A stretch of DNA of 64,000 bases. It comes from Halichondria panicea. Its lineage: Eukaryota; Porifera; Demospongiae; Suberitida; Halichondriidae. Positions 4,341 to 61,900 of the stretch are shown here, piece after piece; within the stretch, counting starts at the first letter, position 1, and each line of letters opens with the position of its first letter. Both the position numbers and the translations under genes were made by a program. The notes beneath the pieces were generated by a model. That model saw only the letters and a program-made list of their open reading frames with translations. It was not told where the DNA came from and searched no databases. The stretch is from the NCBI RefSeq assembly GCF_963675165.1, contig NC_087389.1, positions 4,400,830 to 4,464,829 of the forward strand. Direction: 5' to 3'.

Positions 4341-4343
4341 TCA

Positions 4344-13764: not shown

Positions 13765-14115
13765 CAGTAGACTCTCGCTATTCCGGCTCCCTGAAGTACG
13801 GCCACCTCGATATACCGGCCGTTTGGCTTGGCACGGAATGCTAGCTATATGTTTACTACACAAAACTCACCCTGAAGTACGGCTACTCGATCGCTATTCC
13901 GGTTACCGGCCAGTGCTGGCTGCCCCAAACAAGGTTTTCAATGTGATGTTTTGGGTGTGGTTTAGCAAATAAAATTGAATTACACTTAAATAGAGAACAA
14001 ATTGATTCATTATCCTACATTATCCTCGAGACAAGAACCGCAAAAGTAGTCATTAGATTCGAGGTAAGGTCGTTTTTAAGCCGCGGCTATTTCCTGGCTG
14101 ACTTTTTGAGAATAG
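13765..14115. mobile_element. Pogo/Tigger-like non-autonomous element, truncated
   Basis: Starts CAGTAGACTCTCGCTATTCC after TA, the same terminal type as 16071 and 22538. The internal part (TTTGGGTGTGGTTTA, ACAAGAACCGC, GAGGTAAGGTCGTTTTTA) matches 59306-59491, where the opposite end GAGTCTACTG is preserved. The two partial copies together outline one family. No transposase frame is present. Confidence 0.65.
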
Positions 14116-14529
14116 TCAAAAAGAATAATAGGCAAAATAAAAATAATATTTGTCCTAGTCCTTTAATAGGTTACCCGTGTGTGTGTGTCTGTCTGTCAAT
14201 TCCAGCTGTAACTGTTAATAGTTGCAATGCAACAAACTTCTATTTAGAACTCTATTAGAATTAGAATTGTTGCCGTGATGGGGTGCACACGAAAATTACC
14301 CGCTATATATACGGTACAGAGCCACATCTCAGTAAACTGTCGATATAATTTATGATAACACTTATAATTCGCAAACTAAATACCCACCCCTAACAACTAC
14401 GTTATCATGACAGTATTACAATCATATTGATAGAAACTAACAGGCTATACTTAGTGGACAAATAGGGCAAGGGTATGTATGAAGATGAACTGATCGTTTT
14501 ATATTAATTTTATTGAGTCTTCAGTGTTT
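14116..14529. other. Intergenic, 3' side of the minus-strand receptor
   Basis: Downstream of the gene at 14530-15816. A (GT) run lies near 14178. TTACCCGCTATATATACGGTA near 14297 is a fragment of the MITE family whose full copy is at 50475-50666. Confidence 0.45.
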
Positions 14530-15816
14530 TTACTGAACAAAGATCTCAACAATTTCAAGAGGCGTGTCTTCATCGCTTGTGTGTTGATTGCCACAAATCC
14601 TCAGCTCGATATCGTTTGTAGTCGGATGAGGAAGTTGCTTGCAGAACCACGGTGGATTGTTAAACTGACAGCAAGTACTGTTACTCCCACATCCCTGACC
14701 ATCCCAGACAGGATCATCAGAGTAGAAGATAAAACTGTATGCTTGTCGACTTCCAGTTTCACAGAAGTAGTTTTGACCAATGAAGGGAGGTACAACTCCA
14801 GTGTAGTTGCGGTCAGGTCTTGTGCAGGGACATACAGAATGATCAGATTTAGTTTCATCGTTTGCATTAGCAAATGTCCAGATGTGCTGATGAGGCGACT
14901 GTCCATGGGTTAGGCTCACACTATCAACGTAAACATCATCAATAGTTACAGTTGTGTTGACAAAGTACGGTGCAAAAGCATCTGGAGACTTGTCTTGATA
15001 GCCAATCACTCTCCCACAAACTCGAGAGTACTCCACCCCATAAGTTGGATAGGTAGTAGACACACATCCTGCTGGTCCAGGTCTGCCACAAGTACGCGTT
15101 GGTGGTGTTGTCCTGTTCACCAGTCTGAATCCATCTGGGCAGTTTTGGTTGGAGTCAATCATGTCAAGGTTGGCTACCCTCATCCATCCTCCTGTAGTGT
15201 TGCAGCTACAGCTTGTTCGGTCCATGTCACAGTAGACCTGAACCGGAGAGCTAGTACTGTTGGTTGCAATCCAGTATTCTCCAGATGGTTGGTATTGAGG
15301 GATGTCACTGCACGAGCTGACTGGATAACTTAATGTACCCAATCGTAGTGTTGGTATTATGTTTTGGAATATAACTTGAATCTGTTGGTTCAAGTGGTTC
15401 AGTTGAGCCTGAAACATTCGGTTTGAGTTGTTTAGTTTAGTATGCAAATCAGTTATCAGAATTTTGCACTGCTCATTTGATAATTGAATTCGATTAATCT
15501 GGGATTCCACTCCCTGGCTGGAACTGCTCAGTTGACCTTGCTGGTTGTTCAACTCTATTGGAACATAGCTCACTCCTACCAAAGCCACTATCAGAGAAAG
15601 GACAGCCATCACTAGAGCTATGATGGTGACAACAGCATAGCATTTCCTTCGTACTTTCTTCTCTTTGACCGATACATCTCTGCCTGCTGCTAGGTCGAGG
15701 TCTTCTTCCTTGTTATCTGGTGGGAGAGTGCTATCTACCACTACTGAATTGTAAGTATTCTCCTCTTCTCTGCTGTGAAGATTATACGCAGCATTACAGA
15801 CCACATCTTTGTCCAT
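14530..15816 (-). CDS. Type II membrane protein, receptor-family member on the minus strand
   Basis: Single exon, 428 residues. Cytoplasmic tail 1-58 with REEENTYNSV at about 16-25; a basic stretch (KEKKVRRK) precedes the membrane helix at about 59-84. The stalk 88-160 is longer than in the 5990 protein and includes an extra Gln/Ser-rich segment (QQGQLSSSSQGVESQ) and sequons. The ectodomain, from CSDIPQYQPSGEYW at about 167 to the end, is very close to the 5990 copy (CSCNTTGGWMRV, CGRPGPAGC, HIWTFANAND, DYFCETG-type box written NYFCETG, DDPVWDGQGCG, NNPPWF, IEIFVQ). It is the only intact member in the opposite orientation, so the array includes an inversion. Function not known. Confidence 0.9.
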   Translation of the reverse strand: MDKDVVCNAAYNLHSREEENTYNSVVVDSTLPPDNKEEDLDLAAGRDVSVKEKKVRRKCYAVVTIIALVMAVLSLIVALVGVSYVPIELNNQQGQLSSSSQGVESQINRIQLSNEQCKILITDLHTKLNNSNRMFQAQLNHLNQQIQVIFQNIIPTLRLGTLSYPVSSCSDIPQYQPSGEYWIATNSTSSPVQVYCDMDRTSCSCNTTGGWMRVANLDMIDSNQNCPDGFRLVNRTTPPTRTCGRPGPAGCVSTTYPTYGVEYSRVCGRVIGYQDKSPDAFAPYFVNTTVTIDDVYVDSVSLTHGQSPHQHIWTFANANDETKSDHSVCPCTRPDRNYTGVVPPFIGQNYFCETGSRQAYSFIFYSDDPVWDGQGCGSNSTCCQFNNPPWFCKQLPHPTTNDIELRICGNQHTSDEDTPLEIVEIFVQ

Positions 15817-16070
15817 TATGCATGCATTGATACACTCTTTCAGGTTGGATTGACTTTTGGATTGAAAATTACTTGAACATATATATACACATGCATGCAG
15901 CTGCTGGTTTGATGATTAACAGACACTGCATGCATATGTTTATTATATGATTATAGTCTCTTATTCTTATAATTATAAGGTCCCAAAGCTTTCGTGGCGA
16001 CTTGAATTTTTTGCACGCGGTAACAAAGAGTTAAACATCTAACCCACGTAATGAAAAGCGTACATGTATA
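15817..16070. other. Upstream flank of the minus-strand receptor
   Basis: No gene; should contain the promoter of 14530-15816. No TATA box is convincing. Confidence 0.4.
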
Positions 16071-21726: not shown

Positions 21727-24700
21727 CTAGGAGTAGATAGTTTTGACGAGGAAGCACTCTTCTGTGAGGTCTTTGTTGTCGTTGATGAAGATGTACACAT
21801 CAACAGTGGCCCGGGAATGATGCGGGGAGAAGTTCAGATTGAGCACCACCGTTTCTTGAGCATGCAACTGTTGGGAACAGTGTGTACATGTTAGTGTGTG
21901 TTGAGCTCTATAGACAGTTACATTCAGCCATCATAATATATACACGTAGATCGAGGCCTTCATGTTTGAGATTGTATATACCAGGTACAAGAGTTCATAC
22001 CCAGAGGAGGTACGACACGCGTGCCTCGCAATAACGTTGAGCGTGGGCGTAATTATGCCTCGATTATCCGCCTAATTATTCTGATGGTCCCTGGTCAGTG
22101 GTGTGGCTGGGCTAACACACACAGTGGAGGCTTTAGGGCCCACTATATAGAAGCTATAGAGTTGCATACATAGACAGGTTTTTATGTAACCTATTAGGTA
22201 ATGAAGAGCTAGAGGAGAGATTTAAATGAGTGATGTAGATGATAGTAGGGAAGCATGGGGGAAAGTGGGGCATGGGTGACTTGTAGGACAGTCTGAGCTT
22301 TATTGTTAAGCACTATCGCTAGGGACAACCACTTGTGTATGCTGATGAAATAGCTAGGACCTCTTACGTACCTTGATGAGAATGCTGTCAAATTGTACCA
22401 CGTCTGGTCTGTTGGTGGAGAGGTGGAAGCTCTTCTTCTTGGGGTAGGGGTTTGTGAAGGAAATGGTCTGTACAGGGAAAGAGGAGGAAAAAACAGTTAT
22501 TACATGGTAGAATCCTGTGATACAATTATAGCATGTACAGTAGAACCTCGATTATCCGGACACCTTGGTTCCAGAAGCAGGCCGGATAATCGAATAGATA
22601 AACCACGCCTTGATCCACCCACTTTATTGATAAACAGCAATGCCACATGATTGTCTGCGCATGCGCAGAAGATAAGCAGGTATGTCTCCATGGTAACAGC
22701 TGTAACGCGCATGCGCATTTGAGGGACACGCCCATTTTCTGAATTATTTAATCTGATAAAAAAAAAACTGCCAAGCCAGATGATCGAGGTTCCGGATAAT
22801 CGAGGTTCTACTGTACTGTAAACTACAAGAGACGACAGAGATATACATGTAAAACTAACCACTAACCACAGCCTACTAATTCAACTGACAATAATACAAA
22901 ACAAGACATCTGCACCACTAGTTATTAAACAGTCTGTAATATTTAACTTGCCCACCTTTCTCATCAGCTCTCCCCCTCCAGTTGGCAGTGATATCTGGAA
23001 GCCCCTACTAATCGAGGGGAGATGGGACTCGGACACTACCAACCATTGACCGATGGCCATCTTGTTGTCCACGTCCACAGCTGACACGAGGAGGGTGGAG
23101 GTACCGGGGAAGAGCGTGTGTAGGGTGACGGGGAACTCTGTTAGCGATTGAGAACTCAAGAGGAACGGGGTGGGGGTCAGTATCTGTGTGTGTGTGTGTG
23201 TGTGGGGGAGGGGGGTGGGGTAGCTACAGTGAGAGTTAGTATATCTGTGTGTGTAGGGGTGGGGTCAGTATCTGTGTGTGTAGGGGGGGGGGGTATTGGA
23301 CTGTCATTATTGTCAGGCTTGATCAATACCATCACAAGTACTCATAAGTACACGTTAAAGGTAAAGGCATAAATCCATCATACATTGTAGAAGGAGTGCA
23401 TGAATACTCATGAATATTCATGCACTCCTGCTTGTAGTTTGGACAAAAACAAAAGTTGGAATTTTTCTAAATGCTTTGTCAACATATACATGGAAAAAGC
23501 ATTGCGTTCTTTCTAACACGTACGTACAATACCAACTTATATGTACGTGAGTATCTCACTCACCCTGACAGCATGTTGGTTGCACGAGTAGCAGGCCACT
23601 CTCCTGTCAGTGTGGTCACCTCTCAGCATCAGCTTTACCTGAGAGGACTGCCCTACTTGCAGCGAGTGGTCCACCCTGTAACAGGTAAATCAGACAGCCG
23701 TGTTTATTTGAAATGCTCTAAAGGACAGTCCACTAAATGACAGCCTCTCGACACCTGCCTAACAGAAAATATGCTTCTTAAGGACAAATACGACGTTACC
23801 ACTGTCCATGTACTGTAGGGCTACCCTATAACCCTACACGTCCATGTACTGTAGGGCTACCCTATAACCCTACACGTCCATGTACTGTAGGGCTACCCTA
23901 TAACCCTACACGTCCATGTACTGTAGGGCTACCCTATAACCCTACACGTACATGTACTGTAGGGCTACCCTATAACCCTACACGTCCATGTACTGTAGGG
24001 CTACCCTATAACCCTACACGTCCATGTACTGTAGGGCTACCCTATAACCCTACACGTCCATGTACTGTAGGGCTACCCTATAACCCTACACGTACATGTA
24101 CTGTAGGGCTACCCTATAACCCTACACGTCCATGTACTGTAGGGCTACCCTATAACCCCACACGTCCATGTACTGTAGGGCTACCCTATAACCCTACACG
24201 TCCATGTACTGTAGGGCTACCCTATAACCCTACACGTACATGTACTGTAGGGCTACCCTATAACCCTACACGTACACTTTACAGTGTAAAAAATAATTTT
24301 TACACTAAAATTAATGACAGCAAACCACAAAAAGCACCTTTGTACTGAGTGTATACAGAGCTTCCACACTTGACTGGGAGAGATGAGGTATTTCTGATCA
24401 CTGCAGAGGAATTGGAAAATCGGATTGTGAAAATTATTTTAACATGCAAATGTAACACACACACAAGTCCATTGAAAGCTATCGAAGTTCTAGGCTCCTA
24501 CCAGGAGCCATAGGTACAATGTAGAAGAACAGATTACTTGAATAATGGCATGCTTGAGTATACATAATTATATGGCATGAGTATACATTATACATATGGC
24601 ATGACATAATGGTAAAATACGATATCGGATATGGAGTAGACACAGTAGAGGAATGTATGATTTGTTAGTTCTTACTAGTAGATTATGATGTAGAGAGTGC

Positions 24701-40962: not shown

Positions 40963-43900
40963 CTGTATGTGATGTATGAGAGAAAAGCAGCAGATAATTA
41001 TAGTGTCAACGATAGTAGAGGAACCTGCATATTGCAGTCACCCCCCAGGGCAGACAATATGCTGTATAATTATGTATAATAAAGGCAGGTTGAAACACAT
41101 TCTATATAGGGGACTTTGTGGGGCTTGGCTGTATTATATGATCATGCACAATACACACATATGCAGGTATACATGTAAGGGGTGAGAATGACAATAACGC
41201 CTCAGGGCATGTGATGTATGCACTAAAAGACTTCTCCTAAAAAATTAATTATGCTCATTTCATAATAATGATAGGATCTATCAGGAGCCCATAAAGAGAA
41301 GGAGCGGCTAACTACGGGGATCATATCTCGTAAGTGGTTATGACCGCATTTCCATATATGCAGGGTCCACTAAGTGGTTGAATCCCTACACGTATTATAC
41401 GCAATGCAGGGATGCGGTTTGCAACCACTTAGTCGCTTCCATACAAGGAAGTGCGGTTTCACCGGCAATTACGAGATGTGATCCCCGAGTGTACGTTGAA
41501 GTTGGCCGCTCCTTCTCTTTATGGGCTCCTGGATCTATATATACATTGAACTAACTAATATGAACCCCTTAACAGTTAAATCTGGACACAAAGTGTATGG
41601 ACACTTAAAAAAGTATACAAGCCTCTCTAGGAAAACAGTTTGTACAACACATCACATACTGCTATTAGAAAGCTTGGTGTGAACAAGAAAGCATACAGTT
41701 CATGCAGAGTGTACAACCACATATTACAAGCCAACAATGGCAATTCAAAACACTTCAATTCTACATCATGAAAAAATCGATTTGGGTAAAGGAAACATAC
41801 ACATACACATTCAACAAGTCTACGTGTTGTTCTGATTTGTGTTGGGTGCATTCTGTCTAGAGCCTTCCCCGGTATTCTGTTGAACAGCCGAATCATAGGC
41901 AGGTGGCAAAACACCACCACCTTGTTGTTGCCGTGTACCCCTACTCTCGACAGCCACTGTAGCCGGTGTGCCAGCTGTGGTCGAGGGGATATTCTGCTGC
42001 TGATAACGCATGGCCGACGAATAAGAAGGTGGAGCATCACCGAGGTTGCTAGGAGCGATGTCAGAGAGATTGGGAGCAGTAGCTGGGAGGGAGCGATCGC
42101 TTATTCCAGCTGCTCTCTGTATATATATAAGCGTGAAAACAAATTTATCAAAATGAGGTACTACTGCATGTACACTATGAATGCATCAATTACGTATAGT
42201 ATAAATTAAGCCCCTTTGGTGATCTTATCGAAAGAATGACTGACAGAGCTTGTGATTTCTTCTCACCTGGCCTTGTCCATTGTACATGGTGTTAGTAGAC
42301 GGAGGATAGTACTGATGGCCAACAACTCCGCCAGCTTGCGCGTTATTTTGTCCTCTCATGCGTTCATATCGTCTCTGTCTTCTCTGGTTGCTCCACGGGT
42401 AATACTGATTAGTTTCATACGGGTCTTGCCTTCTGTTCAAATTATTTGTCCCATTTGGGTTTCTTCGCCACGAACGGTTGCTCGATCCAAAGAACCTTTC
42501 GCTCTCGATACCTCTCGATCTTGGACTTTGGCACATTCTAAAACAGTATGAAGCCATTACACATAAAATCAGAATACCAGCAATTGCCGGTGCGATGTAG
42601 TAGAAATAGCTCCAATTGAAATAAGGGTAAATAAAGTCATTTCCATTGGGATCATTCACAGCTACCATTTCTTTCAGCTACTGAAGTACTAGTCTTGGAA
42701 GATTGACTGTGGTTAGTTATGGCAGCTGAAACTGCAACTACAGAGCTAATGTGACTGTCGTCATGAATAGAGTTGCATAGTGTATAGGACAGGTACAAGC
42801 TGTGAACAGTGTAGACCATTAAAATACATGTACACACTGCACGTGCTCAATTAGTGGAAAGCTATTTCTGTACAGTTCTACAAATTATATATAATAATAT
42901 GAGGTGAACAGCATGCAATCACTACAAAATAAATATGGTTTCAGGACACCTTTATAATTATGAAGCAATAATTACTATACATTTTGGTGTGCATGTGAGT
43001 CAACAACACTGCGTGAGCAAAATTGGTGAATGTAATAGTACAATTATTATATAGTTCTGGTACGTTCGTATCTATCTTGCATCATTGTCTTGTCTCACTG
43101 CCACATCGTAAGCTGGAGGCAAAACAGTAGTTATAGCTTCAGCCCCTGTGGGGAGGGGGTTAGCCGAGACGCTAAAGGTCAAAGGTGAGGGTGTTCTGGG
43201 TTGGTATCGCTGAGAGAGTATAGCTGTAGCGTAGGGAGGTGGGGGGTCAGTAGCCGAAGACGATTGTGGGTTCCCAAGGGGATCACTTGTTTCCGCTACT
43301 CTCTATACAGGAAAAGAAGACATGTACGGTGAAGGTCCTTCATGACCATTATTTTGTTATGCCATTATGAAAGGACTACTGCGTATATACTCGAAGGCAT
43401 GGAATTTTTTGTTTGCACATCAGTTTTATGGGTTTGAATCCCCAACAGGGGACAGATATATTGTACACAAAGAACATGGTTTCTGATACATGCATACAAC
43501 TGCATGATACACACATTAGCTTATAGTTACCTGTGTACTGAGGAAAGGGCTAGGTGGACTGTAGTATTGGTAGTCCACTCCTGGTTCAATCCTATACTGA
43601 TCATCTGTTTCAACCAATATCCGCCTCTGGGAATTACCCGATAAAGAAAACTCACTAGATGGATCGTCTCTCCTCAAATTATTTGAATCTGAAGGAGCTC
43701 GTCGGAAAAAGTTTTGACCTCTTTGAGAACGACGAAACCGAGAGCAGTACAAAAACACAGCAAAGGCTATGAACAGTCCACCAATAACAGAGGCAGCAAT
43801 GAAAATGTAGTCATTGTTGATGTCAAAACTTGAAATGATACCGCTCATTCTAGATTTAGTGTTTAGCTATATGACTTGTTTCACTAGCTTCTATAAAGGG

Positions 43901-46900
43901 GATGAGCTTCAAATAGGACTGAATGGACATGACATTTTGTGAACAACATTCAGCATTGTGCTGACATGTATCAAACATATAAGAGACAAAAATTATATAT
44001 AGCTATAGGGCACTCAATAGGAGAACCATAATTATATGCAGCAGATATATAGCTGGCCATGGAGGATTACAATTATCATTTACCTACTACACTGCACAAT
44101 GCAGTATATACACATGTAAAAATAGAAATAACCTCAACACCCAGCATAATTATAATTTATTATGCTTGCAGGAAACGAACAGAGAAATTATATGAACTCT
44201 GTTATCACAACTGATAACATGCATGTTAATAGGTCAACATGTCGGATATAAGAACACCATGTTAGTCGTTATAGTCAGTCACTATAGTCACTAAGTATAG
44301 TCGTTAACACAGTGTCTTTTGTCGTATGATTACAATTATCATTTACCTACTACACTGCATAATGCAGTATATACACATGTAAAAATAGAAATGACCTCAA
44401 CACCCAGCATAATTATAATTTATTATGCTTGCAGGAAACGAACAGAGAAATTATATGAACTCTGTTATCACAACTGATAACATGCATGTTAATAGGTCAA
44501 CATGTCGGATATAAGAACACCATGTTAGTCGTTATAGTCAGTCACTATAGTCACTATATAAGTATAGTCGTTAACACAGTGTCTTATAGTATTGGTGAGA
44601 TGGCCATCGATTCGTCGGTATTGTATCTTGTTTCACTCATTGGTGGTGCACTATTAGTGGCACTCTATATAGCAATGTGTGTGGGATGCTGTATTGCTCA
44701 TCTGAGAAGGAGAAATGAAAGTTATTCGAGGAGGGGAGATGATCACACACCACTATTACCGACAAGAAGAAGCAGGGTTATTTATCAGAGAGGAGCAGAA
44801 ATTACTGCCGCCACAGGACCACAATATACTTTCACTATCTCGAATCCTCTTACTAACGCGTTAAAACCAGAATCTGATGCTATTGGTGAGACAGTCAACG
44901 ACAGATCATTATCAAATGAACCACCACCCTCATACAATGAGGTTCAGGAACAAGGAACAGCTTTGCCTTCTTACACTGAAGTAATACAAGAGAATCGGTT
45001 GCAGAAATCTATAAATGCTGCAGGTCTAAGTAAAGTAACTGTAGCTCAAGAACAAAGGCAGCTTCAGGAAACAGCCACTACACTAGTACCAACAAGAAGA
45101 AGCAGAGTTATTTACCAGAGAGGAGCAGAAATTACAAGGATTGACAAACCACAGCCTCCGTGCAGAGACGTTACATGAAGCATAAGACAACAACAACAAG
45201 CAGTTAGAGCCATTGTTACAATACTATAGGTAGAGTGGAAGCCGATAGTAAACTCTGCACCGTAAGAACAAAATTCAGACACATGTCAAGCTATATAATA
45301 TTGCTGCATGCATGATACAGAATGTTTGCATATCGTATATAGCGGGTTATTTTTGAGAATAGAGGTTCAAATGCATGCATGACCTACAGTAGAATGTCTT
45401 TTAATACCGGATGGCCTTTATTCAAGGTACGTATTTACAGCTGAAGTGATCCTATACCAGGAACAATGGAAAAGGGTCACTAGAAAAGAAAGCTAGAATG
45501 TGGTTGTGGCTTCTTAATTTTGTTGATGTTCTTTATTGTAGGATGGAAATTGATCTAGGGTGCAATTTGATAACACTATTCTAGCCCAGAACAGGAGCCA
45601 TTATTTCTAATACTTCAAGCTCCTATAGTCCACAGTGCATGCATGTCTCATGGACTACTAAAACTCCATTTTCAGCATGCCTCAGGCTCTAATTTAATAC
45701 ACTGCTCCTGTTACTTCCTGTTTAGCCAGCATGTTCACTGCATTTATTGCAAGACAAGACTACTCTTGACAACACCTATTATTCATGTCACAGCCGAGGT
45801 GTTCACACTTCAGTGCTCTAGTTCTGATAGCGACAGGATATGTAGTTGATATCCAAATCTTAAGTCATTCCTTAGTAAACGAGATTCAGTATAATTACGT
45901 ATGTTGTTTCACTATAGCTTCTATAAAGGGGATGAGCTGAGACTGAACGGACATGACATTTTGTGAACAATGTACTCATTACTGCATTGACATGCATGTA
46001 TCGAACAATTTAGGGCACTCGATAAATACAGCATATTATATGCAGCTTATATCCCGTTGCTACGTTGTTGCCAAGTGCAATATGCAGCATAATGCACTGC
46101 TGAAAGTCATATTGCACTGACCGCAAAGTCATAATGCACTAACCACAAAACGCCCCTCTGGCAATTAGACAGACAATTAAATTAAAATTAAATTAATACG
46201 CATGAGAAATAACAAGTATCAAAGTGTGTCCAGCCATGCAGGAATGAATGTTCAGCACTGCTGGAGTTTCTTCTTGCAACCATGCAGGTTTTAAAATTGT
46301 CCAAGATTCATTTTGTGGAAGATTCTGTGTTCCTAGATCGACCTAGTCCTCGACCTCGTGATGCATGTCAATTCTGCTTCACCTTAGCACTAGAAGTGGC
46401 TCTTTTTGCTGGGGGCATGAGCTGTTTTGCAGCAGTGTAGAAGCGAGCTTTCTTGGCTTGGTTATGAGGCCGAGCGTAGACCAGCAGCTAATACATGTAT
46501 TCACTGAGTAGTGGGGTGGGACTGTTTCTTTGCAGCATGCAGTAAGTGGGGTGGGGCTGTTTTGCAGATTTCAGTTGGAACTCCAACAATTTTGTGTCAA
46601 GCCATTTGTCCGTCATGCCAATCTTATACGCTGCAGATACTGGCGTCTAGAAGAGAGAAGAGATGGAGCTGTGTCTAGAGTTGTCTCTGTCTTTTTTTTT
46701 GTGCTGTTTATATTGTGTTACTAGGACAGTGTTATGTTGCTATGCCCTCGGGATATAAACTAGTTATAACACGTGCACTCGGGCTGCATGGCATATATTG
46801 CACTCAGCCCTCGGGGCTGGCGCCCTCGTGCTTCAGTGCAATATATTCCATACATCCCTCGTGCCCGTGTTATAACTATAACATAATTAAAGGCCATGCA

Positions 46901-49900
46901 GGGTTATATACACATAACTAAATTGGGTCAACATTAATTTTGTTATCACATGTGACCCAGCATAGACATGGCATATTCGACTCCTGGCCACAACAGTACA
47001 CATACAAATGACCTCAACATGCACTCAAGGAAAACACACTAACAGCTTGGGGAATTATTTGCAGACAAATTACGGACTCTGTCTTCACAATGAACATGCA
47101 TGTCACATGTACAACAAGGTTCATAGTTTTATACGTCAAAATCTGAATTGATTCTATAATTAAACACAGATCAGATTCCGTACTTATTAAGCATATAGCT
47201 ATACGTATGACTCAACACTCAAACATGTTCCAGGAATTGAAGCAGGGATTAAGTTACTTCATGGGAAACAGATTATTTGGGAAATCTACATTAGCTGCTA
47301 TATATAGCACAATTAATGGTTAGGTCAACAGGTGTGTGTATAAAAGTACACCAAGTACGTCAAGATTATTAGATTCAGTAATTATGATTTATAGTCATTA
47401 GACAGTTTCTTGTTATTAGTACAGAGTACAGAGGAGATGACGGTGATACCAGCTATCAGTCAAGCGCAGAACAGACCATCCAATACTGGTTCTGATTCTT
47501 CAACATCTTCAACACTGTTAATTAGTGGACTTGGTGTTGGTATTCCAGGACTAATCGGTATAGCAATATTTTTGGGAATTGTATGCCGTGTTATGAAAGA
47601 TAGAATTAATCATCCACGAACTCGAACAATCTCAACTCGAGTGGACCCAGGAGTAAGAAGAATTAGACTCATTCATTACAGACAAACAGAATATAATAAC
47701 AACGACGACAATGACAACAACAACAACGATGACAACGATGACGTCGCCACCGCCGCCGCCACATTAGCACCACAACAACTTTTGGCTTTCTCACTTCCTC
47801 AAACTAGTCAATTAAGACAACCTGTAAACACAGACTCTGATTCTATTGATGAGACAGTCAATGACAGATCATTATCAAATCAGCCACCACCCTCATACTA
47901 TGAGGTTCAAGCACAAGGAAAAGCTTTGCCTTCTTACACTGAAGTAATACAAGAGAATCGGTTGCAGGAATCAGTTGAAACTATAAATGCTGCTGGTCCA
48001 AGTGAAGTAACTGTAGCTCAGGAACAAAGGCAATTTCAGGAAACAGCTGCTACAAGCTAGGATTGACATACGTACTATAGTATACATGTGTAGGTGCAAA
48101 GGCACCACACGAAGCACAATGCAATAACTCAGCAAAGCCATGCAAGCAGTTGAGATTGTGAACTATGCACTGTGGCAATTAAGTCAAAATACCAACTACG
48201 TACATGCGTGTATAATGACGATATTATACATGTGGATTGATTATATTTATCAACATTGTTAAATTTTCCCAGAATGCCGAAAGAAAGCATGCATACATGC
48301 AGCTGAGTACAAAAACACAACACAAACTATATACCCCCGGGTTAGGATTAAGGTTAGGGGTTAGCCCATGCATTGATAACAGGGGTACTATATAGATCCC
48401 ACTTGAGTGTGTTTAGCAGGGAACTATAATTATGATGTCGATGAGCTATGAAGCCTTGCTTGTACAACCACCTCCAGCCAAATCTCCGCAACTGCGAGAC
48501 AGTCATGGACTGACTGCATGGTCATCCGATTACAGAAGGGACCGAACTCAATCCTATCTTGACCTTTCGTCTCTCACAGTGTACTCCATCAATCTTGATG
48601 CTGATCATAGAAAGAGTTGTATATGTTAAACCAGCAATGTTGATCAAACATTTTTCAGAACCAAATTGACAGCAGTAAAAAAACACAGCATACGTTATAG
48701 TTTGGAAATCACTCTAGAACTATAGAGTGCCAGGTAGGAAGTTTTGACATCAATTCTTGTACGTGAAATCGCATTTCCTGTAAAGCCATGCACAAACACA
48801 TAATGAATGTTTGATGTTGCCACTGCCAACAGATGACCAACATGTACTCAGACATACTAATTTAGGGAAATATGAAACAGGAAGTTACTTCAAAGGAACA
48901 GATTATTTGGGAGAAAATGTATGGAATGTATATCATTATAATTACGTCACCACTGACTGACTCATGATTCATAAGACGTTTCACAACTAGACGAAAAACG
49001 CCAGATACATTGATTTCTGATAACACAAAGACATTTAAGGCGGCATCAGTTTCGACATCGAGCATTTGTGAACGACCAGAAGTGAATAAATTCTTCAGTA
49101 CTGTACATATACAGTGGCAATTTAATCTTAAGAAGGCCCCTTGGTAGGGTGGAGCTTTCGAACGCATGATAAAATGTGCAAAACGATGCCTAAGAAAATC
49201 CGTAGGGAAAACCTGTCTGACCTTTGATGAACTCTTGTGACAGAGGTGGAAGGGTGCTAAATTCAAGACCCCTTACTTACATGATGTTACAGAGGCCCTG
49301 ACACCATCTCACCTATATACTGGTCGGATATAGGATCCTCTCTTTCCAGATGCCACAGAGCATGAGAAGACTCACAATGAGGACTATTCTCCTGAGAACC
49401 TCACCCGAAGAGCGAGTCATCTCCCTAGAACGCTGGATACATTCTGGAAGCGATGGAAACAGGAGTATTCATTAGAGTTAAGAGAGTTTCATCGCACTCG
49501 CCAGCAAAAGGGAGCCACCTATACTCTTCAGGTGGGCGAAGTTGTGGCGGTTTACGCAGATGAAGGACACCCACGAGGAATGTAGAGATTGGGTAGAGTC
49601 GAAGAGCTCATCCCAAGCTCAGATGATAAGCTTTATGGCGTGCGTGTAAAGGTAATATCTAAGGGAGGGCAGATCAGGATCATTCGGAGATCTGTCCAAC
49701 ACATAATACCCGCTAGAAGTTCGTACTGATCCCCAAGAGACACAGCACACGAATATGAGTGATCACTCAACTGAGAACGTTATCGTTCGAGCTCAAGATA
49801 CACAGAACACCGATCGCCCAACTGAGAATGTCGTTGTTCGGGCACGTTCGACTAAATTCTTTTACTGAGTGCTTGATCGAAGATGATGAACTAATGAACT

Positions 49901-52900
49901 GATTAACTGTATGTGCGTGTATTGATTAGCTATATGTATATCATTATAATTACGTCACCACTGCATGACTATCATTTTACTATCTATTTGTACAACATAT
50001 CTTGTGCACGTCTGGAGACTCAGTCAGCCACATGTTATATTACATGAAAAAGTGAAACAAAGTGAAGTGAAGTAAATATATAACAAGTAGACAGCTATAA
50101 TAGGTGAGTGTAATAGAGATCCAGTTAAGAATCCACTACAACATGTGACCCATGCAGCATAGACATGGCATATTGGACTCCTGACCACAACAGTATACAT
50201 ACAAATGATCTCAACATGCACTCAAGGAAAACACACTAACAGCTTGGGGAATTATTTGCAGACAAATACGGACTCTGTCCTCACAACAAACATGCATGTC
50301 ACATGTATAAGTTGCACTGTACATCAAGTTAGTCATTACAATTACAGACATGTATCTTTTGGGAACCCTGCACTGTATGCTATTGAACATGCCAGCGAAT
50401 GAAGACACCATAACAATCAATGCCAACCTATAATATTGCTGCTAATGTCACATAATGTTTTCGTATTATTATACTACCGTATAGCTGGTAATTTTCGTTA
50501 TTTTCGTGGGCAGGCTGACCTCAACGAAATTTTAACGTAGGCGTGGCTTATCGGAACGTAGGAATGCCGTGCAGCCACGAGACTAAACGAAATTTTTACT
50601 CACGAAAACCACTGTTTCTCGAGTTGAACAATTTTTTACCCCACGAAACTTACCCGCTATACGGTATACAAGGGAAAACAAACATGCATGCAGAATTGCT
50701 ACAGACATGTATATAAACACTGCATAAACAGTCATATTTAGATTGTCCCCGAAATAGATGGTCACAATGTCCTTATTGACCGGGGTAACCTTATAAATTA
50801 ACCTTTAACTAAGCAAACTATAAATTAATGAGTATATATTAATAATTATACAGCTCATCACAATGTATATACAGTTAATACATGCATTACTATTTTGTGT
50901 ACACTATTGTGGAAATAATAAGACATTTCTCTACATATTGTGATATTACAGTAAGTGTATACTGCTACACAGTCATATGCTATTATATATGTGGCACACT
51001 TGACACTATGGATATATGTAAACATAAATATAAGGATGACTGACGTGTATTGTTGGCGAATTATGATGACACATACATGCACAGACAGTGACACACACTC
51101 TCATGGATATACTATAAGCCATTCAGTTTCAGCTAGCTCTTGTACTGACATAAGTGCTCTATATCAATGATATCGTTCTCCAATATCTTGCTTTGAAGTC
51201 TTGCTTGTACAACCACCTTCAGCCAAAACCTCGCAACCATAATGACTGCGAGAGAGTCACTGTCATCCAGTCACAGAAGGGTCTATTTTGCTTTCAAACT
51301 CATTCCCATATCGATCTTTTGTCTCTTGACTATATATAATATAGTGCCATTGTCCACTCAAGGTTTAGAATTTCTAGTTCTGATGTTCGACTCTTCACAG
51401 CTATTGGAGTATAATTATGCTGGTGATATAGTCCATTCTTAACACGTAATTAATAGTATAATAAGGCCACTATTCATGTTTCTGGTTTGGGAATCACCCT
51501 ACATAATGAAAGCACCGCGGGTGCATGCTGATCCGTAGAGGTGCCAAAGCTATAATAACATATACACACATGCATTATATCATGATGGATATTTTTAATT
51601 TTGCTGCATGCAGGCAGAAATCCAGGAATCATAGGGAAACTCAAAGAGTGGGTAATGATCGACGATGGATTATTGTTAAAAATTATTGATGCCAAAAGTT
51701 CAAGTCTAAAATTAGTGGTTGGATCAGAGCCTTGCAGCTCTCTTCTTACTCTTCCAACTATACCAATAGCTAGAATATAGGCATAACTCGAGAACAAAGC
51801 ATTATTTTACAAATCCACAAATACTGAAAACATGACTAGAAGCATATAGAAACTCTTACTTGCACTTCATTGATGCTATAGCAGTCTACACAGACACAGA
51901 CACAGACACAAACAAACACACTACTGTATACCTCGCTTGCGCATGCGCACCGAGGCATAATTAGTGTGAGTGGATGGTTATCACATAACATCCTATTCCT
52001 AAAATCACATTTATTAAGCAAGTCACATGCACAGGTTCCAATAAAGCCACAGACACATAATAAACGTTTCAAATATAATATAGTTGGGGAAATATACAAC
52101 AGGAATTTGCTTCAAAGGAACAGATTATTTGGGAGAAAAAGAAATCTATATTAGCTGTTATCACAATGATCAGGTACCTATAATTCAATTTCTACGGTAA
52201 TACAATTATAATAAGAGAGTGATCAGATGCAAAAATCGACTGATGCTTCATGTCACAGTCATAATTCCTATCTCAAAATTTCGTCTCTCAACTAGTCCTA
52301 TCATCCATTCAAGGCTTAGAGAGAATTTCGTCATTTACACATTTTTCACAGCTACTGAGGTACAGCCCATCCGTCTTGACTTGAACAAAATAATATTGAC
52401 TTGAAGGATATAAGGAAAATAATGTTAACCCTTTAACCGTCGGATTCTTAATTAACAGTGAAGTGAAATGTCTGTAAATTCTCTATCGGGTTTCCAGAGC
52501 AATAAAATGCCTAGCAACCATATACCAATAGAATGCCCATACAACAAGGAATAAAATGGTGCAACATGTGTTGCCATAACAACCACGGTTATTACGCTCA
52601 CCCGTTTTTATCATTTTAAATGCTCGGCCAGCGGTGAGATAAAATCCAAAAATTTTTTTTTATGGATCAGCCTATCATATGGTATAAAGGCTTGACTAAA
52701 CTTGATTTTCACATCATATGAATGTAACAGTGCTAAGATATATCAATTTGAAGTACAATACGTACATGTAATACTATATCCGTGAACGATCTATGAAATT
52801 TACAAGCTCACATAAAGACTGTTCATTAATGCTAATTCTATTTTAGCTATACTATACTTACTACTGATATTCAGGCTATACTATACTACTTGCCAGAGTC

Positions 52901-55900
52901 ACACAGTGAGCCCTCTCCTGGTCTTTCACCGTCCTGGTCCATAGCTCTAGCGTCTAGGTCCATGTCATGCATGTCCTCAGTCCCAGACAGTTCATCAGCG
53001 TCTGGCATAAAGCTGGTAGCCTTTGGGAGGTATCCTACTATCCTCTCTCCTTCATAGGCACTGTCATCACCAGAGGAGACATCGCCATTGCTGTCCTCAA
53101 GCTGTTCAAGCACATCGGCACAAGTAAACAACCTAGCCATAGCTATAAACTTCGTGCGGTAAGATGCTAATGAAATTTTAATATAGCAACGTGGCTTGGA
53201 AAATTCTAGACTAAATTGCACGTGATTCTACAGCTCTTCCTCTATACAGGGATGTGCGTAGTTCGAGCTACTTCCTAAGTATCGCAGAATTAGAATTTCG
53301 CAAAAAAAGTCACTATTGCGGGCCACGATCGTGGCCCGTGACGGTTAAAGGGTTAAACGTTAAATCAAAATAAATTCTAAGTTTTTTCTGAACCCCAAAA
53401 TCGAGAGCAGTAAAAATCACAGCATGCACACGCTATATTATAGTCAATGCCAACAGATGACCAGAACATTATGAATTTCGGCCTAATAGAATAACAATTA
53501 AGGTTCATGGTTAAAAGGATTCTATATAGTTAAACACAGATCAGATTCCGTACTTAAACATAGCTACTCAAACACGCTCCAGGAATTGAAGCAGGGATTA
53601 AATTACTTCATGGGAACAGATTATTTGGGATAATAGCTGCTATATAACACAATAATAATAATAACACAATAATGGTTAGGTCGACAGGTGTGTGTATAAA
53701 AGTACACCAAGTGAGTCAGATTCAGTATAATTATTAGACACTTTCTTGTTATTAGTACAGAGGAAATGACGGTGATACCAGCTATCAGCCAAGCGCAGAA
53801 CAGACCATCCAATACTGGTTCCGATTCTTCAACATCTTCAACACTGTTAATTGGTGGACTTGGTGTTGGTATTCCAGGACTAATCGGTATAGCAATATTT
53901 CTGGGAATTATATGCCGTGTTATGAAAGATAGAATTAATCATCCACGAACTCGAGCAACCTCAACTCGAAGAATTCAATACAGACAAACTAACAACGACG
54001 ACAACTACAATGACAACGACAACGATGACGCCGCCACCGCCACTGTCGCCACATTAGCACCACAACAACGTTTGGCTTTCTCACTTCCTCAATTAAGACA
54101 ACCTGTAAACACAGACTCTGATTCTATTAGTGAGACAGTCAATGACAGATCATTATCAAATCAGCCACCACCCTCATACTATGAGGTTCAAGCACAAGAA
54201 AAAGCTTTGCCTTCTTACACTGAAGCAATACAAGAGAATCGGTTGCAGGAATCAGTTGAAACCATAAATGCTGCAGGTCCAAGTGAAGTAACTGTAGCTA
54301 AGGAACAAACGCAATTTCAGGAAACAGCTGCTACAAGCTAGGATTGACATACGTACTATAGTATACATGTGTAGGTGCAAAGGCATCACATGAAGCACAA
54401 TGCAATAACTTAGCAAGCCATGCAAGCAGTTGAGATTGTGAACTATATATGCACTGTGGCAATTATACGTACATGCATGTATAAATACATGTGGACTGAT
54501 TATATGTTTATCAACATTGTTAAATTTTCCCAGAATGCCGAAAGAGAGCATGCATGAAGCTGAGTACAAAAACACAACACAAGCTATGCCCCCATGCATT
54601 GATAACAGGGTATTATATATAGATCCCATGCTCTTGAGAGTGTTTAGCAGGGAACTATATACAATGATGTCATGAGCTATGAAGCCTTGCTTGTACAACC
54701 ACCTCTAGACAAATCTCCGCAACAATGACAAGAGCGAGACAGTCGTGGACTGCATGGTCATCCGGTCACAGAAGGGACTGTCTGGCTATTGAACTCAATC
54801 CCATCTCGATCTTTTGTCTTAGAGTCATTTTCGACTCTTCACAGTGTACTCCATCCATCTTAACTCGTTGACTTGCTGATCATAGAAAGAGTTTTATATG
54901 TTAAACCAGCATTACTTGAAATGTTGATCAAACATTTTTCATCGACAGCAGCAAAGAAAAAACACAGCATAAGCTATAGTTTGGGAATCACTCTAGAACT
55001 ATAGAGTGCCAGGCAGGAAGTTTTTACATCAATTCTTGTACATAAAATCGCATTTCCTGTAAAGCCATGGCACAAACACATAATAAACGTTTGATGATTG
55101 CCACTGCCGACAGATGACCAACATGTACTCAGACATGCTACAGGAAGACAATGTTTGGGGAAATATGAAACAGGAAGTTACTTCAAAGGAACAGATTATT
55201 TGGGAGAAAATACGAAATCTTAATTATAGCTGTTAACACATAATCAGGCCAACAGGTCGACGTATATAAGTACACTCGATCACTATATAGAGTCAGTAAA
55301 AACAGCTATATAGTGATTAGTATACAGTTTTTAAGTACATGCAGAGGAGATGACGGTGATACCAGCTATCAGTCAAGCGCAGAACAGACCATCCAATACT
55401 GGCCCCAATTTTTCACCACTAATATATGGTGGACTTGGTGGAATTCCAGGACTAATTTGTATAGCAATATGTCTGGGGTGTATGTGCCGTCATTTGAGAC
55501 ATAGAAATAATCACCCACGAAGATTTATGTTTCGAGTGGAGCCAATTGCAGGAGTAAGAACAGCTAGGGCCACTTATCAGAGAGGAGCAGAATATAATGC
55601 TGCTGCCACAATACAACCACAACAACCTATCGCTTTCTCAATTCCAATGGTACCTCAAACTAGTGCATTGAGACAACCTGTAAACACAGACTCTGATTCT
55701 ATTGGTAAGACAGTCAACGACAGATCATTATCAAATGAACCACCACCCTCGTACTATAAGGTTCAGGAACAAGGAACAGCTTTACCTTCCTACACTGAAG
55801 TAATACAAGAGAATAGATCACAAGAATCAGTTGAAACTATAAATACTGCTGGTCCAAGTGAAATAACTGTGGATCAGGAACTTCAGGAAACAGTCACTAC

Positions 55901-58900
55901 AAGAATCGACATACCACATCCAAGTGAAGGTGCAGAGACGTCACATGAAGCACAAGACAATACCGTATAGTGCTAGAAATGTATGCGTGATATTACACTC
56001 TAATGCTATTTATGTGAGTGTCTATCATACTGTATATCGCACAATTATTGGCTTTTATTCGAGGCCTGCATGTATACAATCCCTATTGAAATCGCGACAT
56101 TTAATCGCAAATTAATAGCATAAATAAAATCGTATAGCGTTTTCGTAGCCTTAAAATTGGCCAAAACGCAATATTTTAACTAGATACGTAGCACTATAAT
56201 GGCATAATTATGCAGAAACAACAAGAAGTTGGAGTAAATGCTACAAGACTATAGCTCGGACAGATTGTGAACAATGCCATATAATAATCATTACCTGAGG
56301 TGCGCGTGGGCGGCCACGGGTATAGTAGTCTGTTGGTTGGTTTGTTTGTGATAGCCTTTTCTACTCACCTGGATGCCACAGCACTGCGTTTACAGCATGG
56401 ATAGCCTTCATACAACAATATCTTGGTTTAAATAGTGGCAGATTTTGATGTTAAAGCTTCTTTGTCGAGCAAAAGCTAAGAAGCTTGAACTTGCACATTG
56501 GGCAGCTAGCTAGCTACACGTGGCCTTGACTATGCATTTGCAGCTGAAGTGATCCTTACCAGGAACAATTGACAGTCAAAGCATGGTTATTGACTGACTC
56601 TGGATCCTATACTCTAGCCTGGCAGGAGCCATACTTCTCTAAGTCTAAGACTCCAGGCTTCTTTGCTGTGATCCCAGTCCACAGTCCATGATGCATGTAC
56701 ATTGTTAATTGCTCTTGAGCCGTTACTGTGCTAGTCAGTCATACATGTTACATGCACTGCATTATAATTATATCACTCTTCTGGTTTCTTTATTCATGTC
56801 ACCAGCCGAGGGTTTGCACTTCAGTGCTCTAGTTATAATGTTTATTTGAAAAAGGATAATTTAGAATGCCGAAATTGAGAGTGTATAGAAGTTATCCTAT
56901 TCCCAGGGGTAGTATAATTATGATGAAGTAGATGTGAAACATGCACTGAAGAGATGTGCATGTATCACTCATTCTAGTAAAACACAGATGTATAGCACTT
57001 TATAGTAAGCTAATCAGTGCATGCTAGCTATATAACTTTGGGTAAGCGTTTGATGTCAATAAAATCAAAACCACAACAGTACACACATAGAAAAGACCTC
57101 AACACTCAAATATGCTCATGCAAGGAAAACAAAATTATAACGCAGGAAGTATAAAGTGGATTACTGGGAAGACATGAACTTTGTCATCACAGCTGATTAT
57201 AGGTCAGCCTGTCATCCATATGTATATAAGTAAGTAACAGTCAGTATAGCTATACAGTACAGCTATTCATTATAGCAAAGTGTCGATCATTATTAGTAGA
57301 GAAATATGACTGTGATACCACCTATCAGCCAATCGCAGAACAGAACATCCAATATTGATCCCTCTGGATTATCGTGGTTATATTATGTTGCAATTGTTGT
57401 TGGTGTAGTCTGTATAACAGTGTGTCTGATATGTATATGCTGTCATTTGAGAAAGAGAAATGATCGTCCACAAGAATCTACTAGGTCTAACGTAGTGCCA
57501 AGATTTATCGAAACAAGCGGGGCCACTTATCATAATCAGAGAGGAGCAGAATATAATGTCGACACAAGACCACAACAAACGTTCACTTTCTCAATTCCAA
57601 TGGTTCGAGCATTAAGACAACCTGTAAGCACAGACTCTGATTCTATTGATGAGATAGTCAATGACAAATCATTATCAAATCAGCCACCACCCTCATACTA
57701 TGAGGTTCAAGCACAAGGAAAAGATTTACCTTCTTACACTGAAACAATACAAGAGAATCGGTTGCAGGAATCGGTTGAAACTATAAATGCTGCTGGTCCA
57801 AGTGAAGTAACTGTAGCTCAGGAACAAATGCAGCTTCAGAAAACAGCCACTATAAAAGGATTCACATCGTATGGCGTCCTATAGTGCAGGTGCAGAGGTG
57901 TCACGTGAAGCACAAGACAACACAAGTTATTTCATGAGAACAGATAATTTGGGAGGAAACACAAAATCTATATATACGTAGCTGTTAACAATGATTAGGA
58001 CAACATGTACGTGTGTACACCAAGTTAGTCGATCACTATAATTATATAGATTCAATAATTATATAGCTAGCCATTATTAGCACAGTTTCTATGTTATAGT
58101 ATAGACGAGATGACGGATTTAAGAACAGTGTTAATAATTAGTGTAAGTGTTAATAATTAGTGTAAGTGGTGGTGATACTCTAGGACTATGTTGTATAGCA
58201 ATATGTCTGGGAATTGTCTGCCGTATTTTGAACGATACAAATAATCGTCCATGAACTCTATTGGAGCCAAGAAAAGTAAGAACAGGCAGGGTCACATATA
58301 CAAGGATTGACATGCCATGGTGTGCGGAGGCGTTACATCACTCAGCAATTACAACAACCAATTGGATATTAAACAACTTAGAGTATCTTAACTGTGAGTT
58401 TGATATCTCAATTTGTCATGACCAGTGACAATTGATCTTAAACCACATCATATAGCGCACTTAAAATGACCCCAACACTCAGACATGCTACAGGAAGACA
58501 ATGTTTGGGGAAATATGAAACAGGAAGTTACTGCAAAGGATTATTATTTGGGAGAAAAATACAAAGTCTAAATAGCTGTTAACACATAATCAGGTCAATA
58601 AGTCGTGCTTAAGTACACTGAGTTAGTCGATACTGCAAAGGATTATTATTTGGGAGAAAAATACGAAGTCTAAATAGCTGTTAACACATAATCAGGTCAA
58701 TAAGTCGTGCTTAAGTACACTGAGTTAGTCGATCACTATAGAGTCAGTAATTATATAGCTAGTACAGTTTTTGAAGTACAGATGAGATGACAGTGATACC
58801 AGCTATCAGTCAAGCGCAGAACAGACTATCCAATACTGGCCTCAATTTTCAACACTGATATTTGGTGGACTTGGTGGTGGTATTCCAGGACTAATCTGTC

Positions 58901-61900
58901 TAGCAATAATTATGTCTGGGGTGTATGTGCCGTCATTTGAGACATAGAAATAATCTCTCGAGTGGAGCAAATTGCAAGAGTAAGAATAATAGCCTCCTTC
59001 ACTGGCCTCTGAAGAAGAAGTGCGGCCTGGAATTGAAGCAAGAGTAAGAACAGCTAGGGCCACTTATCAGAGAGGAGCAGAATATAATGCCGCCGCCACA
59101 GTAGAACCACAACAACCTATCGCTTTCTCAATTCCAATGATACGTATGCATCAAACTAGTGCATTGAGACAACGTTATATTGGTGAGACGGTCAATGACA
59201 GATTAATTATTATCAAATGAACTACCACCCTCATACTTATAAGGTTCAAGCACAAGGAACAGCTTTGCCTTCTTACACTGAAGTAATACAAGAGAATAGA
59301 TCGCAGGAACTATTTTGGGTGTGGTTTAACTGGAAATAGAGAGCAGCATTATCCTCTAGACAGAACCGCATCAATTAGATTTGAGGTAGGGTCGTTTTTA
59401 GCAGTGGCTATTTTCTGAAATGTGGCCACCATGCTATTTTCGGCCAAGCTGCACGATCCCAAGGGTGGCCGGATTAACAAGAGTCTACTGTATCGAGATG
59501 GGAATGAGTTTAATAGCAAAATGGACTCGGATTACAGTGACTGTTTCGCGGTGGTCATAGTTGCGAGGCTTTGGCTAGAAGTGGTTGTACAAGCAAAACT
59601 TCAAAGCAAGAAGTTGGAGAACAGTCAGTGTCATTGGATAACGAGCACTTACGGACAACAACTTGAACTGAATGGCTACGTATATACATAATTTCATGAG
59701 CGTGCATGTATGTCATCATGCATTTAGCCAACAATTTTTTATAATTTGTGATTCACAATCACATTCTACTGCCTATATTGTACCATGTCATATGCCTTAA
59801 ATCAGTACATGTATACAGTGAAACCTCTAATCCCTTATATATAAAACAGCCATTTAACTGTGTTAGCAGGCCACTTCTCTTTATTGCTGGCAACCATGCA
59901 GGTCAATATTACACACACAATAATTATTAAGGGTGACCACAGGTTTCATTGTGTATAACACAACACGTACATACATATTTATAAGCAAGTGTATATCATA
60001 ATACAGTATATATAGTACAATCATGTGTAGCATCAGAATTATAAATAAATGCACATGCAAGTTGATAAGTTGTTTAATGCATGTACAAACACAAGGGAGA
60101 TCATTTCCTTTGTGAACGTTATACACTATACTTTTCACAAAAGAGCTAACAGTAGCAGCCAACTATCAAAGAATTTGTATGCTAATAAGTATTCTTGGCT
60201 CAGAGAAGACACTACACTTAGGTCACAGTATAGGACAGTATAGACACATCAGAAGCAGCTAACAATCTATTATAGCTACCTAAAGAGCAGTTAGAGTATA
60301 CTTCTGAGATTCAAAAGTCTATACATGTATATAGCTTATATGTACCAGTAGCTGCTCACTAATGGAGAGACCGGGTCTTACCATCCCCACAGAGTCACTA
60401 AACACAGTCATTATTGTGAGCACAGCCTCTGCTACTGGACTTATTGTGCTACTGGTACTCAACCTCTTTGTGTGTGGATGTATCGTGGCAATGTGCCTCA
60501 AACAAAGAAATGAACCAACGTACCAACGATGCACACCGACGTCAGTGCCTTCAGTGCCTTCGATTAGGGCTCCTGTTAGAGTACAGTTCCAAGAAGAAGC
60601 TAACTACTCTGAAATAGCTCCTCGTACTGAAGACATGTTCCAAATGAGGCTAATACAGAATCATCGTATTACAATGAGTCAACCACATTTGATGACAACG
60701 TCATTTGGACCTCACGGTCTACATAGTGAACATGTAGCTATGAGTCAACCGCACTTGTCTACAAGACAATGGATATCGCAGAGAACAACTTCTTTCGAGA
60801 ATATTTACTCATCAGTCGTGGATTCTCAAGAAGATCTAACCGAAGAACACATCCACCAGGTACATGCATGCATACACGTACAATGTCTGCTAATACAAGC
60901 TAGTAGTAAATCATTATGACACCCGGCTCATTAGATTAGGCACAAAATGCCATAGGCTAATGGTACAGAGTCCCCGTAGATTAAGTATACAGACAGATAG
61001 AGGATTCATAGATAATTCAGGCACACATGGATTAGTGAATCTCATCAGTTTGATAAGGTACAAACTATTGCACTCTCTTAAAGGTGTACATATAGTACAG
61101 TACATATAGTACAGTACATGTACATGATGGTCTAACCTCTCTAATTGCATGGGGAGGCAGTGAACATTTGCACTGATACAAAAGCAGTATAATTATGAAC
61201 ATCAACTCTCCTACGTCTTTTAAAAACAGTCGCTATGTATTAGAGTGAACTTCTTTATGTCCACACCTTTATGCCCTACATAATTATGCTCATATACAAA
61301 TTGTGCAAAGGTTAGGCCAGCCATTATTACACCAGCAAAATTTAAGTACCATGTATAAAATCGTTTCTCAGCATAAGTATACACAAATGCTCCGAGGCTC
61401 TGAAGTGTTGTGATGGTGTATGTACGGTAGCTATAAAGTACATTATTATAATATTGCTATACAGGTCCCTTTGTACCGTGAACTGGAGGGGGTGCCCATG
61501 AGAAGGGAGTACTCGAGTGAGAGACATCTGTCACTAGGGGAACGAGCATACACACTACAGAACTCGCTGTCACAGAGCGCAGAAATAACACTGATTTAGG
61601 AAACGCTTAATTATCACTGTTATCTATTTATTGTGTTTACGAATACTTATAGGGACTGTATTTTCTGAAAGTGCATGCCAACATTTAATGATATAATCTA
61701 AGAATAGCAACAACAATACCTGAAACTAAAAAACGTTCACAAGATTATTGTAAAACAAAATTGAAAGTGCATTATAATTATGCAAACAATCTCCAAATGT
61801 TTACTAAGCATGGGTATTTCGTTTACTACAACAAGTTCAAACACGGTTAAAATTTCGCAAGCAATAGCAAATGAAATATTCACAACAAATTACCCACTGC

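Follow-up and report, generated by a model that had tools for sequence, protein, structure and literature searches.

The window analysed here, a 64,000-nucleotide stretch of DNA (C13:4,400,830-4,464,829 of a 131.5-Mb genome in 39 contigs), carries eight intact genes, G1 to G8, and two relics, R1 and R2, between positions 41,820 and 61,599, as an earlier sequence-only reading had proposed. Seven of these genes, and a further copy on contig C7 (GX), encode small membrane proteins with paired PPxY or LPxY (PY) motifs, and we suggest, with about an even chance of being right, that they are substrate adaptors of the Commissureless (Comm) and NDFIP kind that are largely protected from their own ligase. 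In this scheme, where we infer the topology and expression of the proteins, ligase binding and release, the cargo and its trafficking, and why lysine is depleted, short single-pass proteins in an N-out/C-in orientation would dock a NEDD4/SMURF-type WW-HECT ligase on the cytoplasmic tail through the two PY motifs, which by avidity would recruit and release the autoinhibited enzyme. The transmembrane segment and the fast-changing linker would pair with cargo membrane proteins, the cargo would then be ubiquitinated and sorted to endosomes and the lysosome, and the scarcity of lysine would keep the adaptor itself largely out of ubiquitination.

The eight predicted proteins are small (232, 182, 192, 207, 191, 206, 192 and 210 amino acids for G1 to G8, a range of 182 to 232), and each of the nine, GX included, has one hydrophobic stretch by the Kyte-Doolittle scale, in line with the single-pass architecture described earlier. 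Only about 9 to 31 residues stand ahead of the transmembrane peak. Cysteines number one to five per protein, with none N-terminal to the transmembrane segment in the sequences read. The C-terminal flank of the segment is basic in all nine proteins, and in G1 to G8 the net charge over the 15 residues C-terminal of the hydrophobic stretch is +2 to +4; by the positive-inside rule, the long tail is therefore probably cytoplasmic (N-out/C-in). We judged the tails to be disordered. Exactly two [L/P]PxY motifs are present in seven of the eight window proteins, the number given by the sequence-only reading, and also in GX; G8 has none. At least two motifs arise by chance with a probability of 0.0001 to 0.009 per protein (0.01 to 0.9% of within-protein shuffles). 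G3 to G7 and GX have PPxY followed by LPSY, with the second motif reading LPSYTE[V/A/T]I, and G1 and G2 have PPxY twice; the start-to-start spacing is 13 residues in G3 to G7, 42 in G1 and 41 in G2. The LPSYTE[V/A/T]I motif resembles LPSYDEAL, the form in which the second Comm motif is printed (PMC5578492), and the two motifs stand in the order given for Comm (PMC12101832).

What is new here is the lysine poverty of the proteins. Together, the nine contain 19 lysines and 130 arginines in 1,802 residues, a K/(K+R) ratio of 0.13 (19/149), against a background of 0.43 (90/209) in a small sample of seven neighbouring stop-to-stop open reading frames (ORFs) and 0.385 from base composition alone. 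G1 and G2 have no lysine and 37 arginines in 414 residues (21 in G1 and 16 in G2), for which the probability is 9e-10 by the ORF ratio or 2e-8 by the base-composition ratio. By the same two ratios, the scarcity in the intronless group (G3 to G7 and GX) has a probability of 4e-7 or 2.5e-5, its members not being independent. Each of the seven proteins other than G1 and G2 has one to five lysines in 190 to 210 residues, and their longest lysine-free stretches span 70 to 163 residues. Long lysine-free stretches with arginine kept thus occur in this set, and the pattern is in keeping with the lysine deserts published for ubiquitin-system proteins, stretches free of lysine but not of arginine that are thought to avoid stray ubiquitin (PMC10169902); the proteins named there are mostly ligases and shuttles, and NEDD4 is absent from the main text of that article. 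The lysine-free members interest us most, since ubiquitination of the adaptor itself is common among published cases (PMC9282857) and the need of Comm for its own ubiquitination is disputed, with two opposite reports told in PMC12101832. NEDD4 adaptors that naturally lack lysine would bear directly on the dispute over whether an adaptor needs its own ubiquitination.

The lack of lysine in G1 and G2, its scarcity in the other seven proteins and an N-terminal stretch too short for a receptor fold, argue that these are unlikely to be ligase substrates, not adaptors, that is, surface proteins whose turnover is set by their own PY motifs. Such motifs do occur on many direct ligase substrates. In addition, YxxPhi strings, which are possible endocytic signals, are found in all nine proteins, although those of G2 lie only inside the transmembrane segment and those of the intronless copies overlap PY motifs in most cases.

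If the tails dock a WW-HECT ligase, the genome has candidates. It holds two NEDD4/Rsp5-like loci and one SMURF-like locus at which HECT and WW exon matches lie a few kilobases apart (C7:173-177 kb, C7:5.497-5.502 Mb and C17:5.298-5.302 Mb). At the first C7 locus, an 87-residue HECT piece has its best match in NEDD4 (E value 6e-31), and one WW domain is best matched as NEDD4-like (E 5e-37). A 68-residue HECT piece at the second C7 locus is closest to RSP5 (E 1e-26), with NEDD4 next, and a 77-residue piece at the C17 locus is closest to SMURF2 (E 6e-36). A tyrosine, a histidine and the second tryptophan mark PY-binding WW domains; all are kept in five of the seven WW sequences read at the three loci, and the other two, both from the C17 locus, are without one of these residues in the matched stretch. 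GX lies about 92 kb from the NEDD4/RSP5-like locus at C7:5,496,600-5,505,500 (L020), a closeness that may be coincidence. Elsewhere in the genome (G000), C1:2,997,734-3,001,283 has five consecutive WW matches without a HECT match alongside.

Since 32 of the 39 WW matches in the genome have no adjoining HECT match, the tails might bind other WW proteins, of the YAP/Hippo, KIBRA or MAGI type, or might recruit NEDD4 and ESCRT for vesicle budding. PPxY is also described as a budding motif (PMC6803667), and the strings PTLP and PTVP in GX and PSVP in G8 loosely resemble P[T/S]AP. The exact P[T/S]AP motif, however, is absent from all nine proteins, the printed Comm motif likewise has E and hydrophobic residues after LPSY (PMC5578492), and LPxY is among the motifs of NDFIP2 (PMC12720080). 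We therefore rate these other uses of the tail as improbable, to the same degree as the substrate explanation.

Selection was analysed on paralogues, the six intronless copies, by pairwise counts of non-synonymous and synonymous differences per site (pN/pS). Pooled pN/pS was 0.44 in the PY tail, 1.02 in the N-terminus and transmembrane segment, 1.05 in the linker, where many indels make the alignment uncertain and the value near 1 rough, 0.87 in the C-terminal end and 0.88 overall. The codon bootstrap range was 0.22 to 0.94 for the tail, and the rest gave 1.0 (0.83 to 1.23). On three sets of independent pairs, tail pN/pS was 0.44 to 0.54 (Fisher P 0.011 to 0.028). The transmembrane segment and linker are the most variable parts within the group. 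In the nine core PY codons (PPPSY and LPSY), all 26 pairwise differences among the six copies are synonymous; four of the nine codons vary, all silently. From site counts, the probability of no replacement under neutrality is about 0.005 to 0.0004 if the silent changes represent four to six events.

This absence of amino acid change in the core codons, the low tail ratio on independent pairs and the survival of six intact intronless frames, one of them on another contig, make it quite unlikely that the array is decaying, with weakly constrained duplicates that stay alike through conversion and have little function of their own. That explanation is favoured by the two relics among ten units, by the pooled ratio of 0.88, near 1 outside the tail, and by the partial homogenisation of the tail. 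Very unlikely is the further suggestion that the lysine-poor paired-PY tails are decoys that tie up ligases of the NEDD4 type and so spare surface proteins, for although lack of lysine suits a decoy and overexpressed Ndfip2 can sequester Nedd4 and impair ENaC downregulation, as described in PMC9282857, the PY motifs of NDFIP2 release and do not block WWP2 (PMC12720080).

Several observations weigh against the adaptor reading. On the same three sets of independent pairs, the sequence outside the tail had pN/pS of 0.81 to 0.92 (P 0.04 to 0.31), slightly below 1 with one set at P 0.04, and direct comparison of tail and rest for non-synonymous and synonymous changes was not significant in the three sets (P 0.09 to 0.15). 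Whole-protein pN/pS is about 0.9, so that outside the tail relaxed constraint is indistinguishable from diversifying selection. The tails also differ less at synonymous sites than the rest does (0.18 against about 0.3), which indicates that gene conversion contributes to the likeness of the tails. Two of the neighbouring ORFs are also lysine-poor (K/(K+R) 0.19 and 0.25), as is the PY-less G8 (one lysine in 210 residues), and low lysine is thus not strictly tied to PY motifs. Finally, ubiquitination of the adaptor serves activity in ARTs and, according to some reports, in Comm (PMC9282857). The sequence-only reading had itself named relaxed selection and freely varying PY residues as signs that would count against its proposal: the whole-protein ratio is indeed near 1, but the PY residues, compared among paralogues, do not vary freely. 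Its guess of Nedd4 adaptors was reasonable in view of the paired motifs on probably cytoplasmic tails, the invariant PY residues and the host NEDD4/SMURF-type ligases; it departs from ours in taking NDFIP as the model and in leaving aside the lysine depletion, the mosaic tails and the adjoining groups of unproven kinship, and we think, again with even confidence, that it is better stated as Comm-like substrate adaptors.

A bolder form of the adaptor reading is tentative and less likely than not. The array would be a tandem battery of ubiquitin-proof Comm-like adaptors, in which conversion and selection hold the docking tail constant as the transmembrane segment and linker diversify, each copy selecting a different surface cargo. 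G1 and G2 would then be natural versions of the laboratory lysine-to-arginine mutant of Comm, found in a genome whose Comm matches all fall below cut-off and which, if this is a sponge, belongs to an early-branching animal. The array would also point to repeated origins of short membrane adaptors with paired PY motifs, and to their capacity to multiply within one genome that has an NDFIP-like gene as well.

The gene models rest on open frames and splice signals. G1, on the minus strand, has exon 1 at 42,267-42,668 (short N-terminus, transmembrane segment and linker) and exon 2 at 41,820-42,116 (PY tail with PPSYSSAM and PPAYDSAV, and stop), separated by a phase-0 intron at 42,117-42,266 with gt..ag borders. 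G2, on the same strand, has exon 1 at 43,531-43,848 (transmembrane segment and linker) and exon 2 at 43,072-43,302 (PY tail with PPPYATAI and PPAYDVAV, and stop); its phase-0 intron corresponds in position to that of G1, and in both genes this single intron precedes the PY part. The remaining units lie on the plus strand. G3 (44,600-45,178), G4 (47,437-48,060), G5 (53,766-54,341), G6 (55,350-55,970) and G7 (57,306-57,884) are single exons with PPSY and LPSY. Between G7 and G8 lie R1 (about 58,154-58,299), which retains only the transmembrane and linker part in a broken frame, and R2 (58,787-59,313), which runs from start codon to PY tail with its frames broken. G8 consists of exon 1 at 60,362-60,859 (transmembrane segment and a tail without a PY motif) and exon 2 at 61,465-61,599, which ends in the stop. 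G3 repeats a segment of its own linker, PTRRSRVIYQRGAEIT, in frame near its C-terminus (44,751-44,805 and 45,081-45,135), and a 263-bp tandem duplication (97% matches) at 44,065-44,585, immediately upstream of G3, is possibly a doubled promoter region.

These genes stand side by side, as the term cluster used by the sequence-only reading implied, but they do not form one demonstrable family. G1 and G2 are 29% identical (E 4e-14); profile comparison of G1 and of G8 with hhalign gave probabilities of 2.3% and 2.4%, respectively, against the five intronless copies, and a single family for all eight genes was thus unsupported. The sequences point to a shared architecture in which two or three groups without demonstrable kinship adjoin (G1 and G2; G3 to G7; the PY-less G8). 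The N-termini, described earlier as changeable, do differ between groups and in G3, which lacks the N-terminal segment common to G4 to G7 and GX. Within the intronless group, the tree of the N-terminal part pairs G3 with G7 (support 0.99), whereas the tail tree splits G4, G5 and G7 from G3, G6 and GX (support 0.93); mosaic tails produced by gene conversion would be the simplest cause of this disagreement.

Nor is the battery confined to the cluster. A genome search with G6 recovered G3 to G7, the relics and GX, an additional intact copy without introns at C7:5,593,728 (190 amino acids, both motifs). With a composite PY tail as query, G3 to G7, GX and R2 came up again, along with a single match at E 2.5. 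Searches with G1, G2 and G8 gave other matches only at E 0.115 (G1, on C8) and 0.13 (G2 to the G1 tail). GX looks like a DNA duplication, and a retrocopy is not favoured, because its likeness to the G4 unit of the cluster extends about 145 bp upstream of the ATG, as part of a 70% match between L004 1355-1683 and 47,269-47,625. Units within the cluster are likewise duplicated: 47,150-48,918, the G4 unit, and 53,518-55,211, the G5 segment of about 1.7 kb, are 80% identical over 1,875 aligned columns, and 72 bp of the R2 PY tail are 93% identical to G4. Pattern searches gave 163 hits in a viral contig set and 36 in a genome contig set, in which a prokaryotic source was sought; neither set held a confirmed relative, and a viral or prokaryotic source was not adopted. 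Literature searches on sponge PPxY transmembrane proteins, Amphimedon Nedd4 and PY-motif single-pass or Shisa proteins found nothing on this family.

Other features of the window were also recorded. No Rfam family matched the window at the gathering threshold. Between G4 and G5, a fragment at 49,334-49,582 matches DUF5641 (25.9 bits; cut-off 23.1), which we take to be a domain of BEL/Pao-type retroelements. Four related membrane proteins, type II on our reading and similar in their C-terminal part, are encoded at 2,105-15,915; two of them have weak sub-threshold Pfam COLFI matches, and they form another local surface-protein family. One contains a 150-bp in-frame tandem duplication (99%; 10,318-10,616) that lengthens an apparent coiled-coil stalk. 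At 23,804-24,273, 13 copies of a 36-bp unit (98% matches) are open as a 12-residue repeat on the plus strand.

In comparison with known systems, neither GX nor any of the eight window proteins matched a Pfam family at cut-off. The Comm family (PF15957) matched G7 only (19.2 bits against a cut-off of 27, E 0.0015), and was not listed for any other window protein (E up to 10) or for GX (E up to 1). Of nine shuffles of G7 that preserved its transmembrane segment and PY motifs, six were scanned and none gave Comm, so the match is not owed to these two features alone. A genome-wide Comm search gave nine matches, with a best E of 0.085 and none above cut-off. A remote kinship with Comm is possible on these grounds, and we do not assign the genes to the Comm or NDFIP family. 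The same shuffles disposed of other candidates: RCR, the family of yeast Rcr1 and Rcr2 (G7 at 13.7 bits, cut-off 27.8), was outscored by two of the six, TMEM51 was matched by three (best 17.7 bits against 17.6 for the real G7), and WBP-1 (PF11669; G7 11.8 and G3 10.9 bits against 28.1) was matched by two at 13.2 and 10.7 bits. A genome-wide WBP-1 search found no match, but control genomes gave none either. Further sub-threshold matches were to TMEM52 in G1 (18.4 of 26.4 bits) and G3, TMEM171 in G6 and G7, Fn3_arc in G4, G5 (18.2 of 28.9) and G7, DUF1627 in GX and G5, and DUF2448 in G8; a PDB sequence search with G7 gave eight chance-level matches (E 0.14 to 0.95).

The earlier statement that these proteins are unlike NDFIP holds, and membership of that family was rejected: PF10176 matched none of the window proteins or GX, its sole match in the genome, above cut-off, lies on C16, and each protein here has one transmembrane segment against the three of NDFIP. 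The likeness to NDFIP1/2 and yeast Bsd2 (PF10176) is in the tandem PPxY and LPxY motifs, at least two of which are present in seven of eight window proteins and GX, and in the idea of an adaptor in the membrane that releases ligases of the NEDD4 type; to bind and release WWP2, NDFIP2 requires several PY motifs, LPxY among them (PMC12720080). SUSD6, with one transmembrane segment, binds WWP2 via a cytoplasmic LPSY (PMC12720080), but SUSD6 and TMEM127 have one PY motif each and act as a protein pair; the two motifs on one protein set the present genes apart by description. Shisa-like (STMC6) proteins, with CYYR1, WBP1, VOPP1 and TMEM92, are also short single-pass PY proteins (PMC5578492), but their Cys-rich N-terminal ectodomain has no counterpart here. 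PRRG4, which can act like Comm, and yeast Rcr1, which binds Rsp5, are both described as short transmembrane PY proteins (PMC5578492); unlike PRRG4, the proteins here gave no Gla-domain match among the Pfam results. By analogy, the closest counterpart is Commissureless of Drosophila rather than NDFIP. Comm is a short transmembrane Nedd4 substrate adaptor that brings Nedd4 to Robo1 (PMC12101832, PMC5578492), and it shares with these proteins a cysteine-free ectodomain and a cytoplasmic PPxY followed by LPSY[D/T]E; a single transmembrane segment with PPxY and then LPSY in a predicted cytoplasmic tail is found in G3 to G7 and GX. It differs in the spacing of its motifs, PPCY at 220-223 and LPSY at 229-232 being nine residues apart (PMC12101832) against 13 here, and in the position of the first, which lies nearer the N-terminus here (109 to 163, against 220); the genes here are, moreover, lysine-poor and in tandem array. 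PMC5578492 places Comm together with yeast Rcr and vertebrate PRRG, CYYR and Shisa in a set of short membrane proteins with PY motifs, several of them regulators of the surface levels of other proteins; proteins of this build are thus a known kind.

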